DNA of 64,000 nt from Calothrix sp. FI2-JRJ7 (lineage in GTDB: Bacteria > Cyanobacteriota > Cyanobacteriia > Cyanobacteriales > Nostocaceae). Positions 1-64,000 of this stretch are shown here, piece after piece. The stretch spans positions 62,001 through 126,000 of the forward strand of contig JAHHGX010000076.1 of NCBI GenBank assembly GCA_019359675.1, read 5' to 3'. The translations under genes and the position numbers were made by a program. A model generated the notes under the pieces. It saw only the letters and a list, made by a program, of their open reading frames with translations. It did not search any database and was not told the DNA's origin. The stretch's first letter is position 1. Every line of letters starts with the position of its first letter.

Positions 1-456
1 AAGATGAGTTTCGCTACTTAATACTTTTTGACGTTTGGTTTCGTAAGATTTTCGTCCATCTCCCGCGCGCTTGTTCTTTGGAGAGAGAATTTCTATTGTT
101 GTCACAACTTCACCTGTTTCAACTTCTCGTACTTCTAGATACCCTTCTCTTTCTTCCTCTGGCATTGGAATTGTTACAGTTACGGGTTTAGCTTCCGGTG
201 AAGCAACTGCTACAGCCAAAGCACGTGGGTCATTAGAATCAGTTTTGGAACGTGCTACAGACACATCCGGTATTCCAACTAAAACTGTTTCTTCTCCAAC
301 CGTTTGATAGACACGCTTTTCTATAGCTACCCGATATTTAGGACGTAGATGAGGAACTAAGCTATAAGCCATGAGTGCAATTAACCCGTGATGGACTTCT
401 GCCCAAAGGTCAGGGTTTTCGAGGTAGGGATTCATTCCCGGAAATGGAGAAAGCAT
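1..456 (-). CDS. DUF4058 family protein, upstream copy (partial, runs off left edge)
   Basis: The reverse strand is open from the ATG at 456 to the window edge and gives 152 residues beginning MLSPFPGMNPYLENPDLW, the typical start of cyanobacterial DUF4058 proteins. It is close to the complete copy at 746-1534, with substitutions clustered around residues 24-35 and 75-90 and near identity in the last 60 visible residues. The C-terminal part lies outside the window. The family function is unknown; conserved LSPKNKR and acidic residues have a nuclease-like look, but that is only an impression. Confidence 0.85.
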   Translation of the reverse strand, partial: MLSPFPGMNPYLENPDLWAEVHHGLIALMAYSLVPHLRPKYRVAIEKRVYQTVGEETVLVGIPDVSVARSKTDSNDPRALAVAVASPEAKPVTVTIPMPEEEREGYLEVREVETGEVVTTIEILSPKNKRAGDGRKSYETKRQKVLSSETHL

Positions 457-528
457 ATGGTTACGCTGGATGAACGATATAAAATCACAGGCGCCATTTA
501 AAATAATCGTAGCAGTTCTACTAAAATC

Positions 529-652
529 TTAAAGACCCAACAGTCGTACAAATATGTTTGGTAACGGCAATACGATAAGTATTAGTAAAGCTATTGACAC
601 AATTCCTAAAATATCGCGTTGATTATTAAGTTCAGTTACATCATTCAACGTA
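529..652 (-). pseudogene. C-terminal remnant of site-2 protease gene
   Basis: Reading the reverse strand up to the TAA at 529-531 gives about 40 residues ending RDILGIVSIALLILIVLP then NIFVRLLGL, almost identical to the last residues of the intact M50 protease at 1607-3082. Similarity stops near 650, so catalytic motifs and membrane core are absent. It is the tail carried along by the tandem duplication and has no start codon of its own. Confidence 0.85.
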
Positions 653-745
653 AAAATAAGGTACAGTTCGGTCTTTTTTTCTTAATAATCGTGCATGTGC
701 AAGATATAAGTTAAGCAATGTTTTCTTAAATCAATTGTAATTTAA

Positions 746-1534
746 TCAGCGCAAACCTTGCTGGCGCAATAAATTATCTGCCCAAGTTTCATCAGCATCA
801 GATAATTCAGGTATTGGCTTACGTGTATAATCTATCCTCATATCTAAACCTGCTCGGTGATAAAGCTCTTGTATTAAAGTTTGTAAATCTAATAATGGTT
901 CGGTATCACCTTGACGTAAAGGTAAAGAAAAAGCTGGTATTGGTTCGGTTAGTTCAAACGGGTATAATTCAGCTTTAGGACGGTAATTGCTACGACTTAC
1001 CAAAATTCGGTAGCTACTGTTAATAAATCTACCCACCATTGGCATCGGTTTTCCACTTCGTAGCAAGTCAATTTCTACAAGATGAGTTTCGCTACTTAAT
1101 ACTTTTTGACGTTTGGTTTCGTAAGATTTTCGTCCATCTCCCGCGCGCTTGTTCTTTGGAGAGAGAATTTCTATTGTTGTTACAACTTCTGTTGTTTCAA
1201 CTTCTCGTACTTCCAAATACCCTTCTTTTTCTTCCTCTGGCATTGGAATTGTTACAGTTACAGGTAATCGTGGAGGTGAAGCTACTGCTACGGTCGAAGT
1301 AACTGGGTCATTAGAGTCAGTTTTGGAACGTCCCACAGACACATCTGGTATTCCGACTAAAACTGTTTCTTCTCCAGTAGTTTGATAAACACGCTTTTCT
1401 ATAGCCACGAGGTATTTAGGACGCAATTGAGGAACTAATTCATCAGCAATGAGTGTGATTAACCGATGATGGACTTCTGCCCAAAGGTCGGGGTTTTCTA
1501 GGTAGGGATTCATTCCCGGAAATGGAGAAAGCAT
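746..1534 (-). CDS. DUF4058 family protein
   Basis: This 262-residue protein starts MLSPFPGMNPYLENPDLWAE and contains TIEILSPKNKR near residue 125, both hallmarks of the DUF4058 family, which is abundant and often multicopy in filamentous cyanobacteria. There is no signal peptide or membrane segment, so it should be cytoplasmic. The biochemical role is unknown. Its length is normal for the family. It lies 72 bp downstream of the M50 protease on the same strand and is duplicated at the left window edge. Confidence 0.9.
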   Translation of the reverse strand: MLSPFPGMNPYLENPDLWAEVHHRLITLIADELVPQLRPKYLVAIEKRVYQTTGEETVLVGIPDVSVGRSKTDSNDPVTSTVAVASPPRLPVTVTIPMPEEEKEGYLEVREVETTEVVTTIEILSPKNKRAGDGRKSYETKRQKVLSSETHLVEIDLLRSGKPMPMVGRFINSSYRILVSRSNYRPKAELYPFELTEPIPAFSLPLRQGDTEPLLDLQTLIQELYHRAGLDMRIDYTRKPIPELSDADETWADNLLRQQGLR

Positions 1535-1606
1535 ATGAGTGGGTAAATAAAGAATGTTATTTTGACAGGCGCCATTTAAAACAATCGTACCAGCTTTACT
1601 AAATTC

Positions 1607-3082
1607 TTAAAGACCCAAAAGTCGTACAAAGATGTTTGGTAACGGCAAGACGATAAGTATTAGTAAAGCTATTGAAAGAATTCCTAAAATATCGCGTTGG
1701 TTATTAAGCTCTGTTACATCATTTAATGCTGGCTCGTCAATTAAAGGTACAAATATCAAAATGATTGCCCACAGTAAAAATCCTGGTTGTACCAATGCCA
1801 GTAATAACAGTAAGAAACGCGCGATTTGACCAATAATAATGGCGTTTTTTTGTCCAAACATGGCGTGGATAATATGACCACCATCAAGTTGACCTACTGG
1901 TACTAAATTTAATGCTGTTACTACTAAACCTAATAACCCAGCAAATGCAACTGGATGTAAATCGATAGCTGTTTTGGTAATTAATTGACTGCCTAAGACT
2001 AATTTTGATATTAATGCTAACAGTATTGAGTATCTGGGGTTGAGAGAATCTGGGTTAAATAATCCTGATTGTTCGGTTAGAGGAATAATCGTTGAATTTG
2101 CTAATCCCCACGCGAGTATTGGTAAAGTCGCGATAAAACCAGCTAATGGGCCAGCTATACTGATATCAAATAATGCTTTGCGGTTAGGAACTGGACTCCG
2201 CATTTGAATAAAGGCGCCAAAAGTTCCTAAGAATAGTGGCATGGGTATAAAGTATGGTAGTGTCGCACGAATTTTATAGCGTTTGGCTGTAATGTAGTGA
2301 CCTAATTCGTGGATTCCCAATATTGTTAATAATGCTAAAGCGTAGGGCAATCCTTGTAGCAATACACCTGAATTTTGTCTTAGTTGTTGTGCTTCAACTC
2401 CAGCAATTCTTGCTCCTACTAAAGTAGTTGTCATTAGCGTTGCAAATAGTAAACCTAACGCTATTCCAGGTCGTGTTAATTTTTCTGAACTATTCTGATA
2501 TTTGGCTAATTGAGTGTTAGGTACTAATACAAATATTGGTTTTCCGTTGAAACCTTCTTGAAGCATTACTAAAAAACGGTCGCCAAATTGTGCTTCGACG
2601 TTTTCTTTAATTTGTTGGTAAGCTGCTGTTGCATCTGTCCGCAGTTGACCTTTACAAATCACTGCTTGTGGTCGATATTCTATATCTTGAAGGTAATATA
2701 ACGACCAAGGAAAACAATTTCTTAATTGAGCTTCTTCGTCTGGTTTAATGGGACGTACTGATACAGACGATTCTGCTACTTGATGAATAGCTAATTGAGG
2801 TTGAGGTGTTGCTGATTCAGTTTGGGTGACTTCACTCGGACGGCGCCCTATTTGAAATAATACCCAGTATAAAATAGGGCTAATTACCAAAGGAGCAATC
2901 ATTAATGCCCTAGGTGGACGGACTTGTACACCATACACAGTAGACCATGCAGTCCAAATGAGTGGTGGCGCCATTAGTACCAACCATAACAGCCAAACGG
3001 GTGTTCTGGTGATTCGAGCAACACTCCGCTGCACCATGAAATAAGTAATTATTCCTAGTAAAACGAGAAACCAAAATGTCAT
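1607..3082 (-). CDS. Site-2 protease (M50) family, EGY1-like membrane metalloprotease
   Basis: This 491-residue polytopic membrane protein carries the zinc motif HELGH at residues 258-262 and the second S2P motif NLVPVGQLDGGH in a later helix, so both the metal-binding and the aspartate motifs are intact. The N-terminus has two or three TM helices and a soluble ~100-residue domain before the core, as in plant EGY and cyanobacterial homologues. The family cleaves peptide bonds within membranes, for example in anti-sigma factors. The substrate cannot be told from context. The last ~40 codons are also present as a remnant at 529-652. Confidence 0.92.
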   Translation of the reverse strand: MTFWFLVLLGIITYFMVQRSVARITRTPVWLLWLVLMAPPLIWTAWSTVYGVQVRPPRALMIAPLVISPILYWVLFQIGRRPSEVTQTESATPQPQLAIHQVAESSVSVRPIKPDEEAQLRNCFPWSLYYLQDIEYRPQAVICKGQLRTDATAAYQQIKENVEAQFGDRFLVMLQEGFNGKPIFVLVPNTQLAKYQNSSEKLTRPGIALGLLFATLMTTTLVGARIAGVEAQQLRQNSGVLLQGLPYALALLTILGIHELGHYITAKRYKIRATLPYFIPMPLFLGTFGAFIQMRSPVPNRKALFDISIAGPLAGFIATLPILAWGLANSTIIPLTEQSGLFNPDSLNPRYSILLALISKLVLGSQLITKTAIDLHPVAFAGLLGLVVTALNLVPVGQLDGGHIIHAMFGQKNAIIIGQIARFLLLLLALVQPGFLLWAIILIFVPLIDEPALNDVTELNNQRDILGILSIALLILIVLPLPNIFVRLLGL

Positions 3083-3164
3083 CTTATTTTTATATATTTT
3101 GAATCGTTATAACCTGATAAAAGCAACATTTACACAAACACTCCTCTTAAAATAAGCTCTTCCC

Positions 3165-3806
3165 ATGTTTCTCCAGAATCAAGACAAAAACCAAACAGTC
3201 AAGCAACCACGGGTTATACTCGATACCATTTATGCCTTTGCACCGAATCGAGACACTTTGGGAGGAACTGCTTACCTCATTGTAAGAAATGAAGGTAACA
3301 TATTAGTCGATTGTCCAGCCTGGGATGATACAAACCAGGATTTTATCAAAGCACATGGTGGGGTACGTTGGCTATTTATTACTCACCGCACAGCGATTGG
3401 TAAAACTGCTGAACTAAAACTTGCGCTTAACTGCGAAGTCATTATCCAAGAACAAGAAGCTTATTTGTTACCTGAAGTAGAATTAACTACTTTTAATCAA
3501 GATTTAAGCTTGGACTCAAGCTTGCAGTTGATTTGGACACCTGGACATTCTCCTGGTTCCTCTTGTCTCTACTATAGCGATTTTGGAGGGATATTATTTT
3601 CTGGGCGCCATATACTTCCTGACGGTTCGGGTAAACCAATGCCATTGCGAACCGCTAAAACTTTTCATTGGAAACGTCAACTCAAAAGTTTACAGTTACT
3701 GTTGGAACGTTTCTCCCCTGATACGCTGCAATACTTATGTCCCGGTGCAAATACAGGGTTCCTTCGAGGTAAACGAATTATCGATAATGCCTACAATCAG
3801 TTATGA
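3165..3806 (+). CDS. MBL-fold metallo-hydrolase-like protein, metal site degenerate
   Basis: The 213 residues show a metallo-beta-lactamase layout: GGTAYLIV and NILVDCP strands, then THRTAIGKT where active members have THxHxDH, then TPGHSPGSSCLYY and FSGRHIL near residues 125-150. The first metal motif has lost two His and the Asp, while the GHSPGS histidine is kept. It may be a non-catalytic member or have an altered metal site. The gene is divergent from the M50 protease, 82 bp away, and tail-to-tail with ctpA across an inverted repeat. Confidence 0.75.
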   Translation: MFLQNQDKNQTVKQPRVILDTIYAFAPNRDTLGGTAYLIVRNEGNILVDCPAWDDTNQDFIKAHGGVRWLFITHRTAIGKTAELKLALNCEVIIQEQEAYLLPEVELTTFNQDLSLDSSLQLIWTPGHSPGSSCLYYSDFGGILFSGRHILPDGSGKPMPLRTAKTFHWKRQLKSLQLLLERFSPDTLQYLCPGANTGFLRGKRIIDNAYNQL

Positions 3807-3831
3807 ATTTTAACTTCTAATTCGTTAGTCA

Positions 3832-3890
3832 GGTGCGTGACGCTACTAGATTACTCGTTTTATTTGACAATTGTTATAGCGTCACGCACC
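3832..3890. repeat. GTGCGTGACGC inverted-repeat element, copy 1
   Basis: Arms GGTGCGTGACGCTA (3832-3845) and TAGCGTCACGCACC (3877-3890) form a perfect 14-bp stem around an AT-rich loop. It lies between two convergent genes and could also stop transcription from both. Near-identical elements occur at about 26532, 35156 and 52230. Confidence 0.85.
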
Positions 3891-3895
3891 CTACT

Positions 3896-5152
3896 TTATG
3901 CTGCTCCTACGACGACGTTTCGTTGTTGTAGAAGATCTAATGCAGCTTGGTATTGAGCATCGTCCTTGGTTGCTACTTGGTCGCGTGTTAAGGGTTCAGA
4001 ACTCACTACCTTGTCAGGTTTTATACCAATTTTATTAATATCGTGGTGTTGCGGTGTTTCGTATTTGGCAATGGTTACTGCCAACCCAGAACCGTCGGAA
4101 AGTTCAAATAGTGATTGAATTAAGCCTTTTCCAAAGGTTGTTTCACCTACTAGTGTTGCTCGACCGTTGTCTTGTAAGGCGCCTGCTAAAATTTCGCTAG
4201 CACTAGCTGTACCTTGATTGACTAGAATAACTAATGGGTCATTAGTTAAAGCCGAGCCAAGTGCTTCAAAACTGCCGATTATGCCTTGACGATTAACTGT
4301 ATAAACAATCGTACCCTCTGGAAGCCAAAGGCGCGCTATTTCAACTCCTGCTTGCAGTAAACCACCTGGATTATTTCTCAAATCGAGTATGTACGAGTCG
4401 GCGCCTTTTTTCTCTAAACTATTAATAGCGTGTGCTAACTCCATTGGAGCATTAGCATTAAACTGAGTTAAGCGCAAATAACCTACTGACTTACCTTGTT
4501 CGGTTTTGTGTAGTTGGGCAATAACTGGGTTGAGTTCAATGCGTGAGCGTGTTAGCTGTATTTCACGGTTTGGGGCACCTTCACGCTCAATAACGAGCGT
4601 TACAATGCTACCGTTTGGTCCGCGCATTCTAGCTGCGGCTTCATCAAGAGTTAGTTTTTCTGTTGAAATACCCTCAATGGTAACGATACGGTCGCGCGGT
4701 TGAATGCCAGCTTTTTCTGCTGGTGAACCCGCTATTGGCGCCACAACTTCTAATTTACCTGTTTCAGGATTGAGCGCTATTTGCAACCCAACTCCTGTTA
4801 ACTCCCCAGAAGTGTTGACCTGTAAGCTGCGATATTGCTCTGGGTCTAAAAAACGAGTGAAAGGGTCATCTAGACTCTTGAGCATCGTCTGAATAGCTGC
4901 GTATGTAGCTTGCTGGTTTTGGAGGGGCTTTTCTAAGATTTTTTGCCGAACGGATGCCCAATTTTGATGATTAAAGCTATCATCAAGATAAGTACGGTTG
5001 ACAATTCGCCAAACTTCTGATAGTAATTTCTGCTCGTCAGTCAATGCTGTTGCACTTTGACTGAAGCTAAAAAAAGTAAGAACCAACGCCATTAGCAGCG
5101 ATAATACCACCCGAAAAGTTTTCTTTTGCATTTTGACCATTAGAAGCAACAC
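3896..5152 (-). CDS. ctpA: Carboxyl-terminal processing protease (S41, CtpA family)
   Basis: This 418-residue protein has an N-terminal signal sequence (about residues 10-37), a PDZ domain (about 110-195) and an S41 catalytic domain with VNQGTASASE, giving catalytic Ser317, and TTFGKG, giving Lys342, spaced 25 residues as in E. coli Tsp. CtpA removes the C-terminal extension of photosystem II D1 in the thylakoid lumen; cyanobacteria have several paralogues, so this exact role is probable rather than proven. ATG codons at residues 1, 6 and 8 are all possible starts. It is divergent from petB, 357 bp away. Confidence 0.9.
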   Translation of the reverse strand: MLLLMVKMQKKTFRVVLSLLMALVLTFFSFSQSATALTDEQKLLSEVWRIVNRTYLDDSFNHQNWASVRQKILEKPLQNQQATYAAIQTMLKSLDDPFTRFLDPEQYRSLQVNTSGELTGVGLQIALNPETGKLEVVAPIAGSPAEKAGIQPRDRIVTIEGISTEKLTLDEAAARMRGPNGSIVTLVIEREGAPNREIQLTRSRIELNPVIAQLHKTEQGKSVGYLRLTQFNANAPMELAHAINSLEKKGADSYILDLRNNPGGLLQAGVEIARLWLPEGTIVYTVNRQGIIGSFEALGSALTNDPLVILVNQGTASASEILAGALQDNGRATLVGETTFGKGLIQSLFELSDGSGLAVTIAKYETPQHHDINKIGIKPDKVVSSEPLTRDQVATKDDAQYQAALDLLQQRNVVVGAA

Positions 5153-5509
5153 GTTTAACTCAATTGCTAAATTAATCGCGCGTTGAGTGCGGATTTGATG
5201 AAATATGTCTCTCGACTATGTTACTTTTTTTATAGAAGCGATGCATTCTCTCATCAAACGGGCGACCAATTGATGTGGTTTATCCTTCTTCATAAACGCT
5301 AAAATTTACTTTGTGTCTATCATCCTCCGAGATTGGGTGCAAAGTACGCCATAATACGAACAAACTTTGAAGAGTGTTAAGTTTAGTAAAGAGTCTTAGC
5401 ACGATTGGGCGCCAAGACAACAAGCGAACCTCTATAAGCCACAATCCCATGCAGTGATGTTTGGGAACTTTATCACAGTAAGTATCGATTTTTAGGAACT
5501 AGAGATTGT
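5153..5509. promoter_or_regulatory. Divergent intergenic region between ctpA and petB
   Basis: This 357-bp gap must hold promoters for both ctpA and petBD. It includes a GGCGCC site near 5409. I see no credible reading frame, RNA gene or clear transcription-factor box. Confidence 0.5.
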
Positions 5510-6157
5510 ATGGCTAACGTTTACGACTGGTTTGAGGAGCGTTTGGAGATTCAAGCGATTGCTGAAGACGTAACCAGCAAGTATGTACCTCCTCACGTAA
5601 ATATTTTTTATTGTCTGGGTGGAATTACCCTGACATGCTTCCTTATCCAGTTTGCAACTGGATTTGCGATGACTTTTTACTACAGACCAACCGTTGCTGA
5701 AGCTTATACTTCTGTACAGCACATCATGAACGATGTGAACTTTGGCTGGTTAATTCGCTCCATTCACCGCTGGTCTGCCAGCATGATGGTGCTGATGATG
5801 ATTCTCCACACTTTCCGAGTTTACTTAACAGGTGGTTTTAAAAAGCCCCGCGAATTAACTTGGGTCAGTGGCGTAATTTTGGCAGTAATCACAGTTTCAT
5901 TTGGTGTAACTGGTTACTCGCTGCCTTGGGACCAAGTTGGTTATTGGGCTGTAAAAATCGTTAGCGGTGTACCTGAAGCTATTCCTGTAGTCGGCGTTTT
6001 AATCGCTGATTTACTCCGTGGTGGCGCCAGCGTTGGACAAGCTACTTTAACCCGTTATTACAGCGCTCATACATTTGTATTACCTTGGTTAATTGCAGTA
6101 TTCATGCTGTTCCACTTCTTGATGATTCGCAAGCAAGGTATTTCGGGTCCGCTGTAA
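5510..6157 (+). CDS. petB: Cytochrome b6
   Basis: The 215-residue protein is full length for cytochrome b6 and starts [20 protein letters not shown]. The four haem-ligand histidines are in the second and fourth helices ([37 protein letters not shown]). Cys35 in the IFYCLGG stretch fits the residue that covalently binds the extra haem ci. It is a core subunit of the cytochrome b6f complex, passing electrons from plastoquinol to plastocyanin or cytochrome c6. petD follows 110 bp downstream, as in most cyanobacteria. Confidence 0.98.
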
Positions 6158-6267
6158 AGGCGCACGTATTTTTCTGAAAGTTATACTGGGTGTAGCTTTA
6201 GTTGCATCCAGTTTACACCAAATAAATGCTTTAACTTAAAAAAGTAACGCAGGAGAACATACTAAAC

Positions 6268-6750
6268 ATGGGAACACAAAAGAAACCCGACCTCTCGGAC
6301 CCAACTTTAAGAGCCAAGCTGGCGAAAGGCATGGGTCACAACTACTACGGTGAACCTGCATGGCCTAATGACCTACTGTATATTTTCCCAGTAGTAATCA
6401 TGGGTTCGTTTGCTTGCATCGTAGCACTCTCAGTTCTTGACCCCGCAATGACTGGTGAACCAGCAAATCCTTTTGCAACACCTTTGGAAATTTTACCTGA
6501 GTGGTACTTGTACCCTGTATTCCAAATTTTACGCACAGTTCCTAACAAACTTATCGGCGTATTCTTAATGGCTGCGGTACCACTGGGTCTTATACTCGTT
6601 CCTTTCATTGAGAACGTTAATAAATTCCAAAACCCATTCCGTCGTCCAGTTGCTACCGCTGTATTTTTGTTCGGTACTTTGGTAACAATCTGGCTTGGTA
6701 TTGGCGCCACCTTCCCAATCGACAAGTCTTTGACTTTAGGATTGTTCTAA
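6268..6750 (+). CDS. petD: Cytochrome b6f complex subunit IV
   Basis: The 160-residue protein starts [20 protein letters not shown] and has the PEWYLYP motif near residue 78, part of the quinol-oxidation site, with three TM helices. With petB it forms the split equivalent of cytochrome b. It is preceded by AGGAG about 12 bases upstream and is very probably co-transcribed with petB. A long hairpin follows 33 bp after the stop. Confidence 0.98.
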
Positions 6751-6782
6751 GCCAATAGTCTTATAATGGTTCTTTAACGGTT

Positions 6783-6844
6783 TGACGCCTGTGAGTTTCG
6801 TGATTGTGGGATAATTCCACAGAGCGAAATGAGCGCAGGCGTCA
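6783..6844. terminator. Long stem-loop after petD
   Basis: Nested pairs TGACGCCTG/CAGGCGTCA (6783-6791 with 6836-6844), TTTCG/CGAAA and TGTGG/CCACA form an extended hairpin just after petD. It lacks a downstream T tract, so it may protect the mRNA 3' end rather than be a classical intrinsic terminator. Confidence 0.55.
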
Positions 6845-6989
6845 TATGTTCTGTGAAAAATGTCGTCAATATGAAGCAAAATAATAAGAATCGGTAAGAT
6901 TTGCCTCAATAAATTTGACATTAGTTTCAATCATTTAGTATAAAATCTGTACATCACGATTATTTAGAAAATAACGATTAACCTGCATA

Positions 6990-7448
6990 GTGTTTAAGTC
7001 AAGGTCAATGCTAGGCATGGAGCAGCAAGACCATCTGACGGTAAAGAGCGAACTAAAGCTTCTAAACCAAGTACAACAATGGTTTGAACAATTTTGTCTG
7101 AAGTACCTATCGCCAGGAGGGTGGTCTGAAAGCCAACTTTACCGTCTTAATCTCGCGTTGGCAGAAGGTTTTACCAACGCTGTTCGTCATGCTCACCACG
7201 CTTTACCACCAGAGACAACTATTGATATTGATGTTTGTTTGTTTCTTGACCGACTCGAAATTAGAATTTGGGACCGTGGTAAACCTTTTAACCCTGATGC
7301 AATTAGGGAACCGGAACCAGGTACTCTTCAAGTTGGAGGTTATGGTTGGTTTTTACTACGACGTTTGGCTGACCGTGTTGTTTACGAACGCACGCTCGAC
7401 GATCGAAATTGTTTGCTTATCGTTAAATACGCTTTAATCGGTCAATAA
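6990..7448 (+). CDS. Anti-sigma regulatory factor-like ATPase (RsbW/SpoIIAB type)
   Basis: The 152 residues form a small GHKL ATPase: N box NLALAEGFTNAVRHA (about 57-71), G1 box WDRGKPFNP (about 103) and G2 box GGYGWFLLRRLAD (about 126). Such proteins bind ATP and inhibit sigma factors or phosphorylate STAS-domain antagonists. No partner STAS or PP2C gene is adjacent. The longest frame starts with GTG at 6990; in-frame ATGs at 7008 and 7017 are alternatives. A terminator follows at 7563. Confidence 0.85.
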   Translation: MFKSRSMLGMEQQDHLTVKSELKLLNQVQQWFEQFCLKYLSPGGWSESQLYRLNLALAEGFTNAVRHAHHALPPETTIDIDVCLFLDRLEIRIWDRGKPFNPDAIREPEPGTLQVGGYGWFLLRRLADRVVYERTLDDRNCLLIVKYALIGQ

Positions 7449-7562
7449 TCTACTTCTTCAACAAATCATAATCAGATTCGGCGCCTCACTGACAGCACAG
7501 CAAATTTGAAGAGTAAATTTTGAATGAATTTGTATAAAATTAAATCAACAATTACGTAAACG

Positions 7563-7589
7563 CCGCATTTCTAGTTGCGGTTTTTTTTT
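7563..7589 (+). terminator. Intrinsic terminator
   Basis: Stem CCGCA/TGCGG (7563-7567 with 7576-7580) is followed directly by nine T residues, a rho-independent terminator for the RsbW-like gene 114 bp upstream. Confidence 0.8.
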
Positions 7590-7699
7590 GCTATGATTTG
7601 GAAAACTATATATTTCAAGTAAAATTTGTGCCAAAATTAAGAAGATATTCAGGATAAATACTTAAATTTAGGGTGCGTACCATTTTAGCATGAAAACCT

Positions 7700-7781
7700 A
7701 GAAACCTGGTTTCTTCGTTGATAGCATGTAATAAAAATGACGATTTGTCTGCGACAATGAATGCGTAGAAACCAGGTTTCT
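7700..7781. repeat. 82-bp element with AGAAACC(T/A)GGTTTCT ends, copy 1
   Basis: Both ends carry a 15-bp palindrome, AGAAACCTGGTTTCT at 7700-7714 and AGAAACCAGGTTTCT at 7767-7781. The reverse complement resembles 53103-53169 through the interior as well, so this is a defined mobile-like element and not just two palindromes. It supplies spurious codons ahead of the true start of the glycosyltransferase gene. Confidence 0.75.
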
Positions 7782-56066: not shown

Positions 56067-56088
56067 TACCTACGCACTTTTAACTTAT

Positions 56089-56679
56089 ATGACAGCAGTA
56101 ACACCAACAGATACATCTCACCACGAGGAACATCCTGATTTAAGGGTTATAGGTTTATTGACCTTTCTTGCTTCAGAGTCACTAATGTTTGGCGGATTCT
56201 TCGCAACTTACTTGTTTTTTAAGGGAGTAACTCCTGTTTTTCCGCCTAAAGGTACTGAGGTAGAGTTATATTTACCTGCTATTAACACTGCTATTCTGGT
56301 TTCCAGTAGCTTTGTGATTCACCTTGGTGATGCAGCAATTAAGCGTGGCAGCGTTTGGGGAATGCGGTTTTGGTATTTTGTCACCGCTATTATGGGCGCC
56401 ACATTTTTAGCTGGTCAAATTTACGAGTACCAGCATTTGGGATATGGTCTGACGACAAATGTGTTTTCCAACTGCTTTTACATTTTGACTGGATTTCACG
56501 GTTTACACGTTTTTATCGGATTACTGTTAATTTTGGGTGTAATTTGGCGGTCGCGGCGCCAGGGTCATTATTCTGCCCATAAGCACACTGGTATCGAGAT
56601 GGCTGAGATTTACTGGCACTTTGTGGATATTATTTGGATTATCCTGTTTTTGCTTTTGTATGTAATGACTCAGTTTTAA
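56089..56679 (+). CDS. coxC: Cytochrome c oxidase subunit III
   Basis: From ATG 56089 the 196-residue protein has five TM helices with LTFLASESLMFGGFFATY (the Glu of the subunit III proton path), GFHGLHVFIGLLLI and AEIYWHFVDIIWIILF, the subunit III signatures. The five-helix short form is typical of bacteria. An open frame from 56002 runs through the hairpin and is not likely translated. It closes the coxBAC operon. Confidence 0.95.
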   Translation: MTAVTPTDTSHHEEHPDLRVIGLLTFLASESLMFGGFFATYLFFKGVTPVFPPKGTEVELYLPAINTAILVSSSFVIHLGDAAIKRGSVWGMRFWYFVTAIMGATFLAGQIYEYQHLGYGLTTNVFSNCFYILTGFHGLHVFIGLLLILGVIWRSRRQGHYSAHKHTGIEMAEIYWHFVDIIWIILFLLLYVMTQF

Positions 56680-56682
56680 TTA

Positions 56683-56761
56683 ATCCCCCCTAACCCCCCG
56701 CAAATTCGGGGGGAAAAAGAGCAAATACAAAGCCCCCCTTATCAAGGGGGGTTGGGGGGAT
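56683..56761. repeat. Long C/G-run inverted repeat after coxC
   Basis: The outer arms ATCCCCCCTAACCCCCC and GGGGGGTTGGGGGGAT pair across 79 bp. Two inner hairpins, CCCCCCG/CGGGGGG and CCCCCCTTATCAAGGGGGG, lie inside. It is a common cyanobacterial intergenic repeat and here could end the cox transcript. Confidence 0.8.
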
Positions 56762-56797
56762 CAAATTTAATTTATAACTATTAAATTTTAATTTACT

Positions 56798-57271
56798 ATG
56801 TTTTCTTGGTTTAACGTTCCGGATGATATTAAACAACTATTAATACTTGCTGCTGATAATTGGCAAGATACGTCAAAATCACAACACTATATAAATCAAG
56901 CACTAATTCAAACAAATAATTCTGTAGATGTTCTAATCGCCGCATATAGTTACTTTTACTATAAAAATAATTATAAAATGGCACTAAGTACAGCTAGTCA
57001 GGTTATAAATAATATTAAAGACTCAGAAAATTTACCCGATAACTGGCAACAACTTCAACCCGTGTTATCTAGTCGTAAAGAAGACTCGCAAATTCGACTT
57101 TATTTAAATGCATATGCAGCTTCAGGACTAGTGCTAGCAAAGCTTGGAGAAATTGAACAGGCTAAAACTATTTGCGTGCGTATTAAAGAAATTGATGTAA
57201 ATAACGAATTTGCAGGCGCCAGTATTTTACTTGATATTCTCACCCGCCCACCTGAAGAGGAAGATGATTAA
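56798..57271 (+). CDS. Hypothetical TPR-like protein
   Basis: The 157-residue helical protein has alternating helix pairs resembling divergent TPR/SEL repeats (SQHYINQALIQTNNSVDVLI, YAASGLVLAKLGEIEQAKTI) and an acidic PPEEEDD tail. There is no signal peptide. It follows the cox operon on the same strand after the large inverted repeat. Similar small proteins may occur next to nitrogen-fixation genes, but I cannot confirm this. Confidence 0.6.
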   Translation: MFSWFNVPDDIKQLLILAADNWQDTSKSQHYINQALIQTNNSVDVLIAAYSYFYYKNNYKMALSTASQVINNIKDSENLPDNWQQLQPVLSSRKEDSQIRLYLNAYAASGLVLAKLGEIEQAKTICVRIKEIDVNNEFAGASILLDILTRPPEEEDD

Positions 57272-57465
57272 AATCCGCGCATTGTGGAGACACGATTAAT
57301 CGCGTCTTTACATTTAGGTATTTTTCACAAATCATGTGGGACTGCTATATGTTACAATTCTGAATAATTTATCAAAATTATATTATTATTTAGAGATGCA
57401 ATAAATAGAAGTTATGTATTATTTATGGTTTCATGGGCAATTGAATATTTTTTGATTAAAGTTAT

Positions 57466-59634
57466 TTACCTTGACTTTAATATCTGAATTTTATTTATTC
57501 TTTTAGTATATTCTTGCTTATTACCTTGCTGTAAATATAATGCGGCAGCTTTTTCTAAATCATTAATAGCTGCTGAGATATTTCCCTGCTGCTCGTATAT
57601 ACCACTTCTATTGGTATAAAAAGTAGGTTCCTTAGAATTAATTTCAATTGCTTTATTAAAGTCATTGATTGCTGCTTCAAGTTTGTCTAATTTAAAGTAA
57701 GCAAAACCTCGTAAATTGTAGTAATAACCATCTTTCGATTCTTCAGAAATTGTTTTAGTCAAGTCATCGATTGCAGCTTGATAATTTTTTAGCTGATAAT
57801 TAGTTCTACCTCTGTTACTATAAAAATATGTAATATTAGAGTTGATTTCGATAGCTTTATTAAAATTTTCAAGAGCCAGATTAAATTTATCTAAACTATA
57901 ACACACAACTCCTCTACTGTTGTAATAGTAAGGATTCTGTGGACTTAAATCAATAGCTTTGTTGTAGTTAATAATTGCAGCTTCGTATTTTTGCATATCA
58001 CGATAAGCTAAAGCTTTTTGATAGTAGGTTTCGGCGTGCTTAGAGTTGATATTTATTGCTTGATTGTAATTATCAATAGCTACTATATGCCTACCATTTT
58101 TGGCTTCAATTATTCCTTGTGCTAAATAGGACTCTGTAAGATATTGATTAATATTGTCAGATAAATGAGGAGTTTCTGTTAATGCCAAATTCAAATGATT
58201 AATAGCCTCATAATAATTACCTTTTTGATAATGTTCTATTCCTTGTTGATAATATACTGGGCTAGTATTTGAATCTACAGGCTTCTTAGGTGTCTCTGTA
58301 CTTTCTTGAGTTATTTGATTAGAGTTATTTTGCGTTAGATATTTATAATCATTAACTTTTACTGTAAAAAAGAAAGAATGTATTATGGGTATCGCAGCCG
58401 TAATAAAAGAACCAATACCGAGAATTTTTAATACAATTTTCCAATCCTCACCTTTTTGTGCTATGGTTATTGGTGCTTGCGATTTATAATTTTGTTTTAG
58501 TTGAGATTGTCCCTTTGACGGTGTAGGAGTAAACATAGTAGCACCGTTTGCAGGAACATTCAGAGTTTGCGACCCTTGTGGTGATTGCTGTTTTGCTTGT
58601 GATGGCATAACTGCATTTGCCACATGTGGGAAAATGTCTATTCCAAGTTGCTGTTCACGTTCACACCAATAGCACTTGCCATAAACTTTACTATAGGAGT
58701 GATTTGCTACTTTGCGACAAGCAATTAAATCAGAAAGCGCTATTCGCAAAGCATTACACCAATCTTGTGCTGTTGGTCGTAATCTGGGAGATGTATGACC
58801 ATCGTTAAAACATTTTAAAAATAATTTCTGAATTTCTGGATGAACAACATTTAAAGGTATTGTATTTCGGGTGGCTTGGAGAGGACTATTTTGACTATAC
58901 AACCAAAAGCCTTGCCGAATATATTCGTTTTGTTCTGGTTGTTCTCCAAAAGCAACCCATTTTCCTGTAAACGGATGGTAGCCAAAAAGCAGAAAGTGAA
59001 TTATTACAGCTAGCCGAAAGCGGTCATGGTATTTAGTTTGATTCAAAGAAGATAAATCTTTATTAAGTAGTTCAGGAGGAATAAAACCATCTAAGCCAAC
59101 TTTGCATCGGTAAACCTTTCCATGTTTAGAGTCTGTCACTTGAAACGAATCTACATCAATGATAGAAATTAGCCCCTTGTCATTAACAAGTAAATTTTTC
59201 GGATTCATATCGCCAATCACATAGCTTTTTGCATGAAGTGCGCCTATAATAAGCGCAACATTGTATGCTGTTGCATGTAAGTAATACCAATTAAAATTTG
59301 GAGATTGTTGTAGTCTATGTTGAGGATTATACACATAGAGCAATTCTTTTACTTGACTAATAACTGGCATTAAAAAACCAACACAGTTACCCTGAATATC
59401 TATTAATAATTCCTGTACCCAAGCAATAGAAACATGATTTTGGCTTCTTGTCGGGTCTTCTGGTGGATTTGCCAACATCAGTTGCAGTTTTTTGACCCTT
59501 TCTGCATCATGAGAAAAATACAACTTGGCTAAATATCCACTACGATTTGTTTGCCAAACCGCTCCTTCTCCGCCACTAGCCAGCTTTTTTGTTAACAAAA
59601 TAGACTGACCTTTGCTATCACGATATTGTGTCAT
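57466..59634 (-). CDS. Protein kinase-like protein with TM segment and TPR repeats (TerY-P triad)
   Basis: From ATG 59634 the 722-residue protein has a kinase fold at about 1-305 with GGEGAVW (glycine loop), YVIGDMNPKNLLV (catalytic loop with Asp and Asn, HRD replaced by IGD) and IIDVDSFQV for the DFG region. A short CYWCERE motif, Ser/Pro/Gln linker and one TM helix (about 400-425) follow, then about seven TPRs to the C-terminus. It is the third gene of a vWA-PP2C-kinase operon, 30 bp after the phosphatase. Kinase activity is likely; the TPRs probably recruit partners at the membrane. Confidence 0.85.
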   Translation of the reverse strand: MTQYRDSKGQSILLTKKLASGGEGAVWQTNRSGYLAKLYFSHDAERVKKLQLMLANPPEDPTRSQNHVSIAWVQELLIDIQGNCVGFLMPVISQVKELLYVYNPQHRLQQSPNFNWYYLHATAYNVALIIGALHAKSYVIGDMNPKNLLVNDKGLISIIDVDSFQVTDSKHGKVYRCKVGLDGFIPPELLNKDLSSLNQTKYHDRFRLAVIIHFLLFGYHPFTGKWVAFGEQPEQNEYIRQGFWLYSQNSPLQATRNTIPLNVVHPEIQKLFLKCFNDGHTSPRLRPTAQDWCNALRIALSDLIACRKVANHSYSKVYGKCYWCEREQQLGIDIFPHVANAVMPSQAKQQSPQGSQTLNVPANGATMFTPTPSKGQSQLKQNYKSQAPITIAQKGEDWKIVLKILGIGSFITAAIPIIHSFFFTVKVNDYKYLTQNNSNQITQESTETPKKPVDSNTSPVYYQQGIEHYQKGNYYEAINHLNLALTETPHLSDNINQYLTESYLAQGIIEAKNGRHIVAIDNYNQAININSKHAETYYQKALAYRDMQKYEAAIINYNKAIDLSPQNPYYYNSRGVVCYSLDKFNLALENFNKAIEINSNITYFYSNRGRTNYQLKNYQAAIDDLTKTISEESKDGYYYNLRGFAYFKLDKLEAAINDFNKAIEINSKEPTFYTNRSGIYEQQGNISAAINDLEKAAALYLQQGNKQEYTKRINKIQILKSR

Positions 59635-59664
59635 ATAGGGTAGTCTCAAATCATCTTTTTAACA

Positions 59665-60888
59665 TCAGCGAAGAGGTAAGTATAAAACTATTCCTAGCAA
59701 CAACCCTAAAATAGTATTGCTTAAAGTCACAATTATTACTGCTCGAATCCTGTATATAAGTTGTAATAATTTACTGTAATTTTTAATCTCATATTTATAG
59801 TTAATAGGTTTTATTCGAGTTTTATTAAACCATTTAAATAGATTAATAAAAGTAATGGATAAAACCCAAAGTACAGCAGCAATGCCAAATCCAAAAGTCA
59901 TCCATTTTATTGGTTTTGGTTTCATCCATAAAGATGCTAGTAAGTAGCCTGCTAACATATTACATACGAAGCTCACTATTAGAAAATCCCAAGGAACCTT
60001 TACTGAGTCCTTAATTATTGGAGACGCAACAGCTTCCTTTGCTGGTTCTTTAGGCTTTATGTAATCTAAATTTATTGATGGTGCATATGAGTAATCCTTA
60101 GACTTACTCTCTCCATCGTACAAGCACAAAAGCAGAGTTTTATCATCATCAGTACGTGTATTTACATCTTCTGAGTCTAGCCACTTTTTAATATCCTCTT
60201 CTTCTTGCTCAAGGTTTTCCGTCATTTTTAGCCCTTCTTCAAAGGGTTTAAAGAAGCCAGAGGAGGGCTTCCAGTCACGGAAGTTAATTGCAAGTCTTTC
60301 TAGTCCATCTGTGGAAGCACAAATAAATTTAGGATTGTCTAATACATCCACATCCATTTCATAATGTGCATCCTTTGATGTTACAAATGTTGTTTCGTTG
60401 GCATATTCTCCTTTATCAGGCGGAAAAAATAATTTATATTCATTGGAGTTTTCAGCACGTACTACAATAAAGCCATCCCCAATTTGCATTGCAGCAATCC
60501 AATCGGGAGTGGCAATAAAAGCTAGTAGAGTACAAGCTAAATCGTTCAACTCACATTCTTGTTCAGAAGCTTTTGCTGTTAATTCATCTTTTACCTTATC
60601 TAAAATTTTACCAAAAACTTTCCTAGCTAATTTTTTTGGTATTGGTTGCTGTAAATCACGCTTCTTTTTTTCCTTGAAATTTTTGAAGAATTCCTCCAAG
60701 TGTGAAAGAGCAGTTTGAACTGCTAACTCCGCACCAATCTTAGAGAATTTGGCACTACCAGCCCCATCAGCGACTGCACCTACAATCACATCATCAATAA
60801 CTTTACGTTCACTATAGTCTTGACACGGTATATCGCCCTGTTTATGACTAGTTCCTTCAACAGAACTTCTAATAGCTTTCCACCCCAT
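59665..60888 (-). CDS. PP2C-family protein phosphatase with C-terminal TM segments
   Basis: From ATG 60888, preceded by GAGG, the 407-residue protein has a PP2C domain: DIPCQDYSERKV, VGAVADGAGSAKFS with a metal-binding Asp, FICASTDGLERLA and NTRTDDDKTLLLCLY (about 20-260). Three or four TM helices follow (about 300-405). It should remove phosphate from Ser/Thr on targets of the adjacent kinase. It starts 16 bp after the vWA gene. Confidence 0.87.
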   Translation of the reverse strand: MGWKAIRSSVEGTSHKQGDIPCQDYSERKVIDDVIVGAVADGAGSAKFSKIGAELAVQTALSHLEEFFKNFKEKKKRDLQQPIPKKLARKVFGKILDKVKDELTAKASEQECELNDLACTLLAFIATPDWIAAMQIGDGFIVVRAENSNEYKLFFPPDKGEYANETTFVTSKDAHYEMDVDVLDNPKFICASTDGLERLAINFRDWKPSSGFFKPFEEGLKMTENLEQEEEDIKKWLDSEDVNTRTDDDKTLLLCLYDGESKSKDYSYAPSINLDYIKPKEPAKEAVASPIIKDSVKVPWDFLIVSFVCNMLAGYLLASLWMKPKPIKWMTFGFGIAAVLWVLSITFINLFKWFNKTRIKPINYKYEIKNYSKLLQLIYRIRAVIIVTLSNTILGLLLGIVLYLPLR

Positions 60889-60903
60889 AAAATACCTCAC
60901 CTT

Positions 60904-61566
60904 TTAAACAGATACTTGACTCCATCCCACGGAAGGAAGCTTTATCATTGTTCCTCCCGGTTTGCTGTGAGAAACCTGCTTCATTGACTGACTTAGCCAG
61001 AGAAACATATCTCTGAATTTCAATCCATCTAGCCACATAGGTGGACGTTCTGGTGGAGCAATCTGGCTTAAAGTCGCTATATCCGCTCCTTTGACACCAA
61101 CTGCAAAAAACGAGATTTTCCGATTGTTTTCTGCATCTCTAACACGCTGTGCTGCATTCTGCCAATAATCTGTTGGCGCCCCATCTGTAATTAACCATAC
61201 CCAAGGACGATAGTATTGGATACCGTTTTCTCTATAATCTTCTTTACGTTCCTCAAGCAAATCTAAACCATAGTTAATAGCTTCTCCCATAGGAGTAGCA
61301 CCATAAGCTTTCAGGCACGAAGGGTCAAACTGGTCAATAGTTACAAACTTTTGAGCCACATTTACCGTCTCGCCAAATGTGACAATAGCAACTTCGACTC
61401 TAAGAGAAGCAAGCCCATCTTGTTGAATTGACTGTTTGAAGGTCACAATTCCATCGTTTAATTCTTTGATTGGTTGACCACTCATGGAGCCTGAAGTGTC
61501 AAGTAGCAAAACTACGGGGCATCGAGGCTCAGGGTTAAAAACAAACTCCGGTTGTCCTACAGGCAT
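60904..61566 (-). CDS. TerY-like von Willebrand factor A domain protein
   Basis: The 220-residue protein is a single vWA domain with an intact MIDAS site: VVLLLDTSGSMSGQPI (DxSxS), Thr in KAYGATPMGEAIN and WLITDGAPTD. TerY-family vWA proteins occur with PP2C phosphatases and kinases in Ter-linked stress systems. It is the first gene of the triad; the others follow 15 and 30 bp downstream. It probably acts as a metal-dependent scaffold. Confidence 0.88.
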   Translation of the reverse strand: MPVGQPEFVFNPEPRCPVVLLLDTSGSMSGQPIKELNDGIVTFKQSIQQDGLASLRVEVAIVTFGETVNVAQKFVTIDQFDPSCLKAYGATPMGEAINYGLDLLEERKEDYRENGIQYYRPWVWLITDGAPTDYWQNAAQRVRDAENNRKISFFAVGVKGADIATLSQIAPPERPPMWLDGLKFRDMFLWLSQSMKQVSHSKPGGTMIKLPSVGWSQVSV

Positions 61567-61969
61567 TTATCTAGTTTAATAGTACTTACAATTACTATTA
61601 AACTAGATTCTTTTTTTACATTGCATCAGAAAAAATACTAGTATTTTACTGTTTCTCTTTAAAAGCTTTGAAGATTATATATCAACCATGTGTAGCTCTA
61701 AGCTTTCATTGTTAATGAGATATAAGGTATAAAATTATACTGTTGTCATAAGTCTATTATCGTTTTATAGACGTTAGAAGGCAAATAATGATCAAGCGGG
61801 ATAATTAATTAATAATTCTTACGTAAAATAGCAAATTGGTGTCAGTATAAATACGCTATAGTAGCGAATCTTAGTCTAAATCTTCTCTCTCCAGGTTTAA
61901 AAGAATTTAAATCGAAACAGTTGATACACTAAATTTTAAAATTAAAATACTCACATTTGCCGCTAAATA
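61567..61969. promoter_or_regulatory. 403-bp gap upstream of the vWA-PP2C-kinase operon
   Basis: AT-rich sequence that must carry the promoter of the triad. I see no gene, RNA or repeat here. Confidence 0.45.
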
Positions 61970-62477
61970 CTAGCTCATACCTAAACTTGCTTTCCATTCT
62001 CTCAGAACTTTAGCGGATATGTGTTTACCACGCTGGTTGATTAATATATCAGCCATTGTTACAACTTCTACCGCTGTTTTGTGTCCAGTCTCTACCATCT
62101 CTTTTAACAATCGTAGTGTTCGCGTGTAGGCAATGCTGTATGCTTTACAAGTTTCTATAACTAACCCGTCATCGCTGGCACAAATTAATAACTGGTGACG
62201 AGCTATAGCAATTGTCGAACGGTCTGCAATGCTTAAAAGCGGCGCCCTCACAGCAAATTCTAAAAAACTAGCAAACATTTCCTCGCTCAGAAAGACTTAG
62301 AGGAGTTAAATATTGGTTAGCAGCTTCACGGGTGGGAAGTTAGAGTTGGTTTGAGTCTAGAAGTTCTTGGGAAATATACAATCGGCTGTAATGCTGTTGT
62401 AACCATTCCCACTCGTTGAGCCAACAGAAATCAATTAGTGCTGTAGCGTCAAGAATGGTTCCGTTAAGCGACTGCAT
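61970..62477 (-). pseudogene. PIN-domain toxin with a stop and a frameshift
   Basis: From ATG 62477 the frame gives TILDATALIDFCWLNEWEWL and RLYISQELLDSNQL, the acidic start of a PIN domain, then a TAA. It resumes as LPTREAANQYLTPLSLSERG, and after a frameshift near 62278 another frame gives LLSIADRSTIAIARHQ, LICASDDGLVIETCKAYSIA and RTLRLLKEMVETG, the PIN C-terminal core with its DD pair. The residues join into one domain if the two defects are repaired. It overlaps the upstream ImmA-like gene by 14 bp, a toxin-antitoxin arrangement. Confidence 0.75.
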
Positions 62478-63063
62478 AAACCTCAGTCTCTTGACGACGC
62501 ACCCGCAGTTGTTCCACGGTTATATTTAAAAGTTCGGCAGCCTTCATTTCAGAGATTTTACCTAGTTTAAGGGCATTCCAGATTAGGTATATAAATCTTT
62601 CATTCTCTGGAAATTCCTCTATTGTCAGTGCTGGGGGTAATTCAATTGAATCTTGTAGTTTGACGCCATGTTGTTTTTTGTAGATTCCATGTATTTTGGT
62701 TTTTTCTTTGGAATAATCAATAATTCCCATTTCTGCCAAACACTTCAAAATAACTAAGTAACTCACCCGAAAATGCCGTTCGAGTTTAACAATGTCTTGA
62801 GTGCGCGCGTATATCCGCTCAAATTCGGACTGGGGTACAAGTAAATGCGCTGCAAAATAATCAGCTACTTTGTCGCTCGCGTTTTGTTCTTCTTTTGTTT
62901 CTTTTATTACAAACATATCTTGGTACTCTACACGGTGAAAAATCAGGTGTCCAATCTCACGTGCTAAGGTAAATAACTGACGTTCAATCGTGACGTTATG
63001 AGTATTTACCAAAATGAAGGCGCCTTCAGTATCACTATAGCTACCTTTCGCATAGTCAAACAT
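62464..63063 (-). CDS. ImmA/IrrE-like metallopeptidase domain protein, truncated and probably inactive
   Basis: The 199 residues begin inside a COG2856-type protein: AFILVNTHNVTIERQLFTLA, then REIGHLIFH in place of the HExxH zinc site (first His is Arg), then ASDKVADYFAAHLLVPQSEF. The usual N-terminal XRE helix-turn-helix is missing. Family members act as antitoxins or repressor-cleaving proteases and pair with PIN toxins, as here. The lost His and N-terminus suggest decay, like its neighbour. Confidence 0.75.
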   Translation of the reverse strand: MFDYAKGSYSDTEGAFILVNTHNVTIERQLFTLAREIGHLIFHRVEYQDMFVIKETKEEQNASDKVADYFAAHLLVPQSEFERIYARTQDIVKLERHFRVSYLVILKCLAEMGIIDYSKEKTKIHGIYKKQHGVKLQDSIELPPALTIEEFPENERFIYLIWNALKLGKISEMKAAELLNITVEQLRVRRQETEVYAVA

Positions 63064-63163
63064 ATATTTCTATTACTCTGACTATCTGCTTAGTTTAAGT
63101 CAATATAGCATTTCTAGAAGATTTAAAAAAATACAAATGATGTATGAGTTTAATTCAAAATTT

Positions 63164-63252
63164 CTTGTGGAATGGGCATCCTTGCCCGTAAAGATTTCTT
63201 AGGCGCCGGATAGTAGAGATGTGCTGGGCGTAAGCGACGCCCACCCCACAAG
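63164..63252. repeat. CTTGTGG...CCACAAG element, copy 2
   Basis: Ends CTTGTGGAATG and CCCACCCCACAAG enclose GGGCATCCTTGCCC and GGGCGTAAGCGACGCCC hairpins and a GGCGCC site. It is the same layout as 46970-47064. Confidence 0.7.
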
Positions 63253-63292
63253 AAGGCCACCTACTTGGGTAGTGCGACTCGGAGCGGCGCCG

Positions 63293-64000
63293 TCAAGCTT
63301 GGGTTTGTAATGTAGCTAAATTATCCTCTGAAAGCGGAATACGACTGGGAAAGTGGAAAACAATTAAAGAAATTCTTTTAGAACTACGAGCAATTGCCTC
63401 AGTTGTAATTCCTAAGCTGGGTAGACCTGGGATAGTAGAATCACTGTTATGGGTTAGTATCAATAAATCATCGGGTTGCAAAATTTTTAAGATGCTGTTG
63501 GTGAATTTTCCCTGTATGCGCTGTATCGGAATGTCCAAAATAATTTCAGGAATTTCTATATCTTTTGAGCGTTTCCGAGGAGGGGATACTTGTAATAGTA
63601 GTACCGATGCTTTGAGTTCATTCGCTAAAATACGGGTCAGTGCTAAGGTACGTAGAAATGTGACTGAAGTTAAGTCTGTTTCGATAATTGGTAAAAGTAC
63701 TCGTTGAGTTGTCTCAATTGGATGGGTGAAGCGTGTAATCAATACTGGTATTGTAGTACGACGTACTACGTTATCAATGGCGCCGCCAAAAAAGTTATCC
63801 CGATATGTAGCAAAACCTTTCCAACCACAGATAATTAGATTGGCATTGCGCTCGAAGGCAGTTCGCAAAATTCCCTTTTCAATTGAGTCGTCCAACCGAC
63901 CAATAGCTTCAACGTTTGTCACTGCTGCATGGGCAATAGTTTCTGCTGCTGCTAGCAACTGCTGCTGTTGAATCTTTGTCTCACCTGAAATTTTTGGTTG
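63293..64000 (-). CDS. Universal-stress-protein domain protein (partial, runs off right edge)
   Basis: The reverse strand is open from the window end to 63293 (236 residues visible). It shows a USP-like half with KGILRTAFERNANLIICGWK and DNVVRRTTIPVLITR, then a second unit with RVLLPIIETDLTSVTFLRTL and DDLLILTHNS. Tandem USP domains of this type form the C-terminal cytosolic part of cyanobacterial cation:proton antiporters, so the missing N-terminus may be a transporter. That is inference, as the 5' end lies outside. Confidence 0.7.
   Translation of the reverse strand, partial: QPKISGETKIQQQQLLAAAETIAHAAVTNVEAIGRLDDSIEKGILRTAFERNANLIICGWKGFATYRDNFFGGAIDNVVRRTTIPVLITRFTHPIETTQRVLLPIIETDLTSVTFLRTLALTRILANELKASVLLLQVSPPRKRSKDIEIPEIILDIPIQRIQGKFTNSILKILQPDDLLILTHNSDSTIPGLPSLGITTEAIARSSKRISLIVFHFPSRIPLSEDNLATLQTQA

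Follow-up and report, generated by a model that had tools for sequence, protein, structure and literature searches.

The stretch of DNA analysed here (the window) comprises 64,000 bases on contig 76 of the 8.66-Mb assembly of the cyanobacterium Calothrix sp. FI2-JRJ7 (G000), and its genes and intergenic gaps are studded with the palindrome GGCGCC. An earlier note, made by eye from the letters of the window, counted about 120 of these sites roughly 0.5 kb apart, set them against some four expected by chance at 40% G+C, and proposed that GGCGCC replaces the usual cyanobacterial highly iterated palindrome (HIP), HIP1 (GCGATCGC), of which it noticed no copy. These estimates were close: the window (39.3% G+C) holds 123 sites at a mean spacing of 519 bases (median 396), against 3.65 expected from composition and 6.0 from a first-order Markov model, which makes GGCGCC its top over-represented 6-mer, while HIP1 is absent and CGATCG occurs once. 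The enrichment is certain and runs through the whole genome, where 14,889 copies of GGCGCC stand against 8 of the reversed word, scattered at about 1,720 per Mb or one per 550 bases. When the sites are masked in building the Markov model, the excess is about 22-fold, and the sequence flanking the sites varies. HIP1, with 31 copies genome-wide against 51 of its reversed control, is not enriched and lacks the high frequency that characterizes it elsewhere. Neither of the outcomes that the earlier note named as refuting its proposal was seen.

The placement of the sites was described less exactly. They do fall in both genes and gaps, but not evenly, at 1.88 per kb inside predicted open reading frames (ORFs) and 1.08 per kb outside them (window, 60 kb upstream of it, and 180 kb of G004, Dulcicalothrix desertica PCC 7102). 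The A/T-rich flanks amount to a mild lean: of the 123 sites, 89 have A or T at -1 and 79 at +1, against a background of 61% A+T. Among 186 sites in the G004 block, the reported Gly-Ala (98) and Ala-Pro (43, as xxG-Ala-Pro) phases are present and 13 sites lie outside ORFs, and the third phase, given as Arg-Arg, is centred on an Arg codon (32). Across three stretches, the spelling GGCGCC is used for 267 of 512 Gly-Ala pairs, where codon use elsewhere predicts 1.2%, some 43 times less.

Whether the hexamer was already known as a HIP had been left as a question, and it was: Elhai 2015 (PMC4390886) reported that no other 6-mer in 97 genomes comes near the over-representation of GGCGCC in Calothrix PCC 7103, a member of the same genus. 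In that strain HIP1 is gone, two GRCGYC methyltransferases are predicted and GACGTC is strongly under-represented (PMC4390886). That paper also describes alternate HIPs as sporadic and not occurring in clades, so that only HIP1 itself would be selected. Apart from this paper, no relevant literature on GGCGCC as a HIP, as a methyltransferase target or as a Calothrix word was found in a search whose coverage mostly excludes subscription journals. New here are the extension to all seven genomes of the genus that were examined, the failure to find a partner nuclease in them, the C-to-T footprint at the third base (C3) of the site, and the measurement of losses against gains.

Distribution of GGCGCC in the genus and family

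We compared the genome that contains the window with those of 59 relatives, 60 genomes in all. Besides G000 and G004, the genus includes Calothrix PCC 7103 (G005), PCC 7716 (G002), NIES-4105 (G003), HK-06 (G006) and the metagenome-assembled genome Calothrix C42_A2020_038 (G001). These seven genomes contain 7,475-20,380 copies of GGCGCC and 31-163 of HIP1, whereas 29 other genera of the same family contain 3-530 copies of GGCGCC, with HIP1 at 1,117-7,721 in 28 of them and at 535 in the remaining one (G028). Observed-to-expected ratios for GGCGCC under the Markov model are 14-22 in each of the seven, for which about 1.23 Mb was sampled in all. Because all seven have the hexamer while the 29 other genera keep HIP1, the genomes themselves identify GGCGCC as a genus-wide HIP of Calothrix/Dulcicalothrix, kept as a clade, and the proposed replacement of HIP1 is supported. 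Five close congeners (G000, G006, G005, G004 and G002) are 93-96% identical among themselves and G001 is 80-82% identical to the other members; the simplest reading is a single swap on the stem of the genus, retained through some 20% nucleotide divergence.

GGCGCC resembles HIP1 in being a dispersed, GC-rich palindrome tied to a methyltransferase, at a density within the 1,000-2,000 per Mb given for HIPs (Elhai 2015, PMC4390886), and differs from it in sequence. Alternate HIPs are confined to genomes with little or no HIP1, a pattern that all seven members follow. With the published case of PCC 7103 it shares the hexamer, the genus, the absence of HIP1, the depletion of GATC, a predicted GRCGYC methyltransferase and the under-representation of GACGTC; that report concerned one strain, and in two of our seven genomes no second methyltransferase copy was found. 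The same-family genome G028 has 535 copies of HIP1 in 10.7 Mb, a low GATC density (0.07 per kb over a 14-kb stretch) and no clear substitute palindrome in a 114-kb sample; it is perhaps a HIP-vacant genome.

Methyltransferases and nucleases

A search of the seven genus genomes with PF00145, followed by clustering of the fetched genes (some matches were not fetched or typed), yielded two families of 5-methylcytosine (m5C) methyltransferase, groups A and B, that occur in all seven. Group A in G000 is a 319-residue open frame with a C5-methyltransferase fold (PF00145, E 6.9e-66). Its neighbour in six of the seven genomes is one and the same RuBisCO-like gene, and in G006 it is present as two fragments at contig ends. 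We predict that it is a BsaHI/HgiDI-type enzyme with the target GRCGYC, which includes GGCGCC, rather than GGCGCC alone, because its relatives adjoin HindVP-family nucleases and share its recognition region. A HindVP-family nuclease gene directly adjoins group A at four of six inspected loci outside the genus. The nuclease at locus L170 bears, by eye, the motifs WGKNQF, DKAFA and SPERRFD, which are those of BsaHI, HgiDI and HindV of the GRCGYC group (Neely and Roberts 2008, PMC2413257). An alignment of 21 of 26 chosen sequences (five failed a motif filter), also judged by eye, gave a recognition region of RR(G/A)IFSIDEPSPTIR-type common to nuclease-linked and unpartnered members; a specificity shifted to GGCGCC was considered and not seen there. 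No nuclease gene occurs in the stretches inspected at loci L180 (Roseofilum) and L186 (Planktothrix), where about 10 kb contains 0 and 0 copies of GGCGCC and 15 and 8 of HIP1. Within GRCGYC, M.BsaHI modifies the central C (PMC2413257), which corresponds to C3 of GGCGCC, and the group A enzyme would probably methylate the third base, GG(m5C)GCC; Elhai 2015 (PMC4390886) described the methylation site as known for no enzyme of this specificity.

The other candidates fit less well. Group B (370 residues) was rejected as the GGCGCC enzyme: plasmid relatives adjoin Cfr10I/Bse634I-type nucleases on all three plasmids viewed, a fourth, unannotated plasmid match aside, and since the target of Cfr10I and Bse634I is RCCGGY (PMC2413257), group B points to that sequence. 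Group C (427 residues) was not seen among the fetched PF00145 matches of G006. A second GRCGYC methyltransferase was not found in G001 or G004, in which a 93-residue fragment and a 392-residue gene, respectively, are untyped.

The earlier note suggested looking for a solitary methyltransferase, and a candidate for which no partner nuclease was found occurs in all seven genomes. In a 388-genome sample of the class, 40 genomes carry group A at E <= 1e-40, which with the six other genus members makes 46 carriers. The HindVP family (PF09519) is present, whole or in part, in 37 of them, where 28 genes cover the profile with no stop and nine are partial or interrupted (G291, G160, G026, G334, G340, G333, G312, G317 and G407, of which G333 may be truncated where its contig ends). 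It was not found in nine carriers, namely the seven genus members, G277 and G413. A complete GRCGYC restriction-modification system was therefore not seen in the genus, with PF09519 in none of its seven members and in 37 of the 39 other carriers. The genus enzyme shares its type with BsaHI, HgiDI, HgiGI and HindV (GRCGYC, PMC2413257), to judge from its relatives' neighbouring nuclease and recognition region, but unlike them it has no nuclease, and GGCGCC is enriched rather than avoided.

GGCGCC is rich in eight carriers only (7,475-20,380), and these are the eight in which the nuclease was not found and HIP1 has been lost. None of the 36 carriers with a whole or partial nuclease and HIP1 retained (518-9,589) is rich, and the 37 nuclease carriers together range from 0 to 152 copies. 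In G174, an intact nuclease coincides with 45 copies each of HIP1 and GGCGCC, which is not rich. HIP1 loss is the stronger discriminator of rich genomes because ten carriers that lack an intact nuclease but have HIP1 are not rich. GGCGCC is likely linked to the unpartnered group A methyltransferase. Three further genomes that appeared rich by the reversed-word control (G043, G409 and G290) were rejected after a Markov recheck of 20-39 kb each (8 vs 6.8, 4 vs 3.8 and 11 vs 18.6), with HIP1 as their main HIP; high-count genomes such as those of the G+C-rich family f29 lay outside this recheck.

The eighth rich carrier, G277, has 9,489 copies of GGCGCC, against 304-343 in its congeners G042, G264 and G305, which have no group A match. 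Its consensus is CGGCGCCG (120 vs 5.0 expected) and it has two further m5C genes; precursors of its sites could be sought at just 14 alignable sites, at about 73% identity. It lends partial support to a role for the unpartnered methyltransferase. Its genus, g37, exhibits three HIP states: HIP1 in G264 and G305 (3,110 and 3,424), a GGCC type with HIP1 at 134 in G042, and CGGCGCCG with HIP1 at 74 in G277, which suggests quick HIP turnover inside that genus. In HIP1-poor G042, AGGGCC (160 vs 52) and CAGGCC (132 vs 41) are enriched per strand in 100 kb (L207-L208, L216-L218), as are CAGGCC (148 vs 28) and CAGGCCTG (28 vs 1.7) in 80 kb of the likewise HIP1-poor G174 (L219-L222); these GGCC-centred words may be further alternate HIPs. 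Another genome, G055, has GCCGGC at 122 vs 14.8 and RCCGGY at 279 vs 43.8 in 60 kb (L226-L228), with HIP1 at 673 in 6.5 Mb, and so resembles Oscillatoria PCC 10802, for which Elhai 2015 describes RCCGGY-type enrichment with low HIP1. The Oscillatoria HIP has low HIP1 and an over-represented m5C methyltransferase target in common with GGCGCC, and differs in its motif and enzyme family.

Turnover of GGCGCC sites

Across the five close congeners, 216 places have GGCGCC in at least one genome. Of these, 106 are conserved, 69 are losses and 4 are gains in a single genome, and 37 are neither fully conserved nor singletons and were set aside. Control hexamers with five or six G/C and without GGCGC or GCGCC are balanced at 988 losses and 1,041 gains, and those composed of G/C entirely show 128 and 86. 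GGTGCC or GGCACC accounts for 47 of the 69 singleton losses, and 99 of 126 checkable words of these two kinds are GGCGCC in another genome. Examples from the window are given in Table 1.

The footprint behind these losses was measured in a 180-kb block of G004 aligned to the other genomes, at places with at least four of the five close congeners aligned. Singleton C-to-T changes occur at 65 of 372 C3 positions, 505 of 5,936 other CpG positions, 11 of 372 C5 positions and 9 of 357 C6 positions; C3 differs from other CpG at p = 1e-7 and from C5 and C6 together at p = 6e-17, sites being treated as independent. At synonymous third positions the corresponding figures are 46 of 141 for C3, 384 of 1,718 for other CpG, 5 of 55 for C5, 6 of 135 for C6 and 797 of 4,201 for other C. 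The simplest cause of the excess would be deamination of 5-methylcytosine.

Decay is frequent, and yet it does not seem to accumulate. Each close lineage has lost 14-32 of 157-174 sites (8-19%), which would follow from rapid mutation of a methylated C3 to T. Among the more distant relatives, G003 lacks 20 of 96 sites and G001 lacks 13 of 30, that is 21% and 43%, where constant-rate loss would, by our own estimate from the branch lengths, give about 46% and 67%. Retention over these longer distances is far better for GGCGCC: G001 keeps 18 of 32 window sites but 0 of 33 other all-G/C hexamers, and for G003 the figures are 37 of 52 and 10 of 36. With losses so far out of proportion to distance, and old sites kept even at synonymous positions, some force presumably removes or reverses the losses, so that decayed sites seem to be purged or restored, and a selective or repair-driven upkeep of GGCGCC is plausible. 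Very-short-patch repair of the Vsr type was rejected as the agent that makes or restores the sites, since the Vsr nuclease (PF03852) occurs in none of 34 genomes, including all seven of the genus, in a search that did not extend to non-canonical T:G repair.

Table 1. Coordinates of sites and genes in G000 (window positions, except for the group A gene)
Feature	Coordinates	Strand	Details
GGCGCC sites	490..63784	.	123 listed positions; first 490, last 63779
Decayed site	4574..4579	.	GGCACC here; GGCGCC in G006, G005, G004, G002 (four aligned); C3-to-T on minus strand
Decayed site	13742..13747	.	GGTGCC here; GGCGCC in G006, G004, G002 (three aligned)
Variable site	17672..17677	.	GGTGCC here and in G004; GGCGCC in G006, G005, G002
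Decayed site	27381..27386	.	GGCACC here; GGCGCC in five aligned congeners
Decayed site	38544..38549	.	GGTGCC here; GGCGCC in 6/6 congeners
Variable site	40252..40257	.	GGTGCC here and in G001; GGCGCC in five other congeners
Decayed site	43718..43723	.	GGCACC here; GGCGCC in 5/6 congeners, AACGCA in G001
Variable site	48974..48979	.	GGTGCC here; GGCGCC in G006, G002; GGCACC in G003; two congeners unaligned
Longest GGCGCC-free run	57221-61174		3,960 bases between sites (mean 519)
ORF in GGCGCC-free run	57466-59649	minus	
ORF in GGCGCC-free run	59665-60900	minus	
Group A methyltransferase gene	G000:C79:135478-136416		319 residues; outside the window

How the palindrome may be held

The explanation that we favor, with somewhat better than even confidence, is that the GGCGCC sites are targets of an unpartnered BsaHI/HgiDI-type methyltransferase in a lineage without HIP1, methylated at C3 and held by selection or repair. 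HIP1 would have been lost first, after which the target of a methyltransferase that may have parted from its nuclease took the place of HIP1. The methylated C3 would mutate quickly to T, and the holding force could be weak selection that keeps methylated G-meC palindromes at a given density, or else a repair bias linked to methylation.

Several observations weigh against this explanation. The seven genus genomes represent one shared origin, and the eight rich carriers are two lineages at most. Nuclease loss is not sufficient: the nuclease was not found in G413, where GGCGCC numbers 208 in 6.3 Mb (4 vs 6.0 expected in 71 kb) and HIP1 3,327, and in the nine carriers whose nuclease is partial or interrupted GGCGCC numbers 2-152; all ten keep HIP1, and only G174 speaks in favor of a role for the nuclease itself. 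GACGTC is likewise a GRCGYC site, and its near absence (3 vs 106 expected in 1.23 Mb) means that target range alone cannot explain why GGCGCC rose by itself. G277, the only rich carrier outside the genus, has an excess of AGCGCC (227 vs 39.4 per strand) that does not suit a GRCGYC enzyme. When synonymous positions alone are counted, C-to-T is just 1.5 times as frequent at C3 as at other CpG (p = 0.007), and in G004 the C3-to-T changes (5) hardly outnumber those at C5 and C6 (4). Finally, the two closest relatives retain whole sites (79 of 100 and 56 of 74) no better than an average hexamer, although other all-G/C hexamers are retained less (53 of 88 and 36 of 65); average retention there would be expected if fresh decay dominates at short distances.

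A first alternative is the ratchet proposed in Elhai 2015 (PMC4390886), in which mismatch repair steered by newly formed G-meC converts sequences close to the motif into GGCGCC, leaving sites that serve no purpose in themselves. A methylated C3 in GGmCGCC would supply the G-meC that this model requires, and HIP1 is gone, as it also requires. A running ratchet should, however, create sites, yet only 4 were recently gained while 69 were lost, and just 3 of 83 sites in G003 are held by no close congener. The second methyltransferase copy, considered possibly critical in Elhai 2015, was also not found in the enriched G001 and G004, apart from the two untyped genes. We regard a ratchet as an unlikely explanation of the present sites, though one may have acted formerly, until saturation.

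It is similarly doubtful that another enzyme, or no methyltransferase at all, underlies the enrichment and that the GRCGYC enzyme is a bystander inherited by descent. The shared ancestry of the seven genomes would allow this, G413 and the nine carriers with partial or interrupted nuclease genes show that possessing the enzyme and no functional nuclease is not enough, the consensus of G277 is not plain GRCGYC, and the enzyme survey covered typed m5C matches, with N4-methyltransferases outside the search. Yet the only other m5C family in all seven genomes, group B, points to RCCGGY, no group C gene was seen among the fetched matches of G006, and the C3-to-T excess points to an m5C enzyme acting on C3.

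That the excess itself is a sequencing or assembly artefact is very improbable. Nanopore data are known to contain errors at methylated motifs, and the C3-to-T changes are uneven, being highest in G005 (21) and lowest in G004 (5). They nevertheless clearly exceed the C5 and C6 changes in four of five genomes (10:4 in G000, 18:4 in G006, 21:8 in G005 and 11:0 in G002) and slightly in the fifth (5:4 in G004), and G005 is PCC 7103, whose genome was analysed by 2015 and is presumably not of nanopore origin. Chance, composition, codon or amino-acid usage and a dispersed repeat family are already refuted by the excess over the masked model, the rarity of the reversed word, the spelling of Gly-Ala pairs and the variable flanks.

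If the sites are indeed held as methyltransferase targets, GGCGCC would be, within the reach of our literature search, the first demonstrated case of an alternate HIP lasting across a clade, and C3-to-T decay with restoration would reveal the holding force at work. We tentatively raise the possibility, which we consider less probable than not, that HIP identity is interchangeable: what cyanobacteria need would be a dense grid of methylated G-meC palindromes rather than one sequence, and after HIP1 loss the target of an orphan m5C methyltransferase could be drafted and then held by selection genus-wide. A genus that keeps another HIP over about 20% divergence counts against the premise that alternate HIPs are sporadic and not found in clades. 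The genus would amount to a natural swap experiment, with the same family, a different word and a named methyltransferase candidate.

Other palindromes also depart from expectation. CGCGCG is a second enriched palindrome in the window and in all seven genus genomes (502 vs 94 expected in 1.23 Mb), with a 3- to 9-fold excess per genome and no fixed flanks. In the window, GATC (15 vs 134 expected) and GGCC (11 vs 125) are depleted, and TGCGCA, GCATGC, GTGCAC, CTGCAG and TTCGAA are all absent, as though several restriction systems were, or once had been, active there; GATC is low in all seven genus genomes, at 0.08-0.34 of expectation. The longest GGCGCC-free run of the window, which covers two ORFs (Table 1), is possibly recently acquired DNA.

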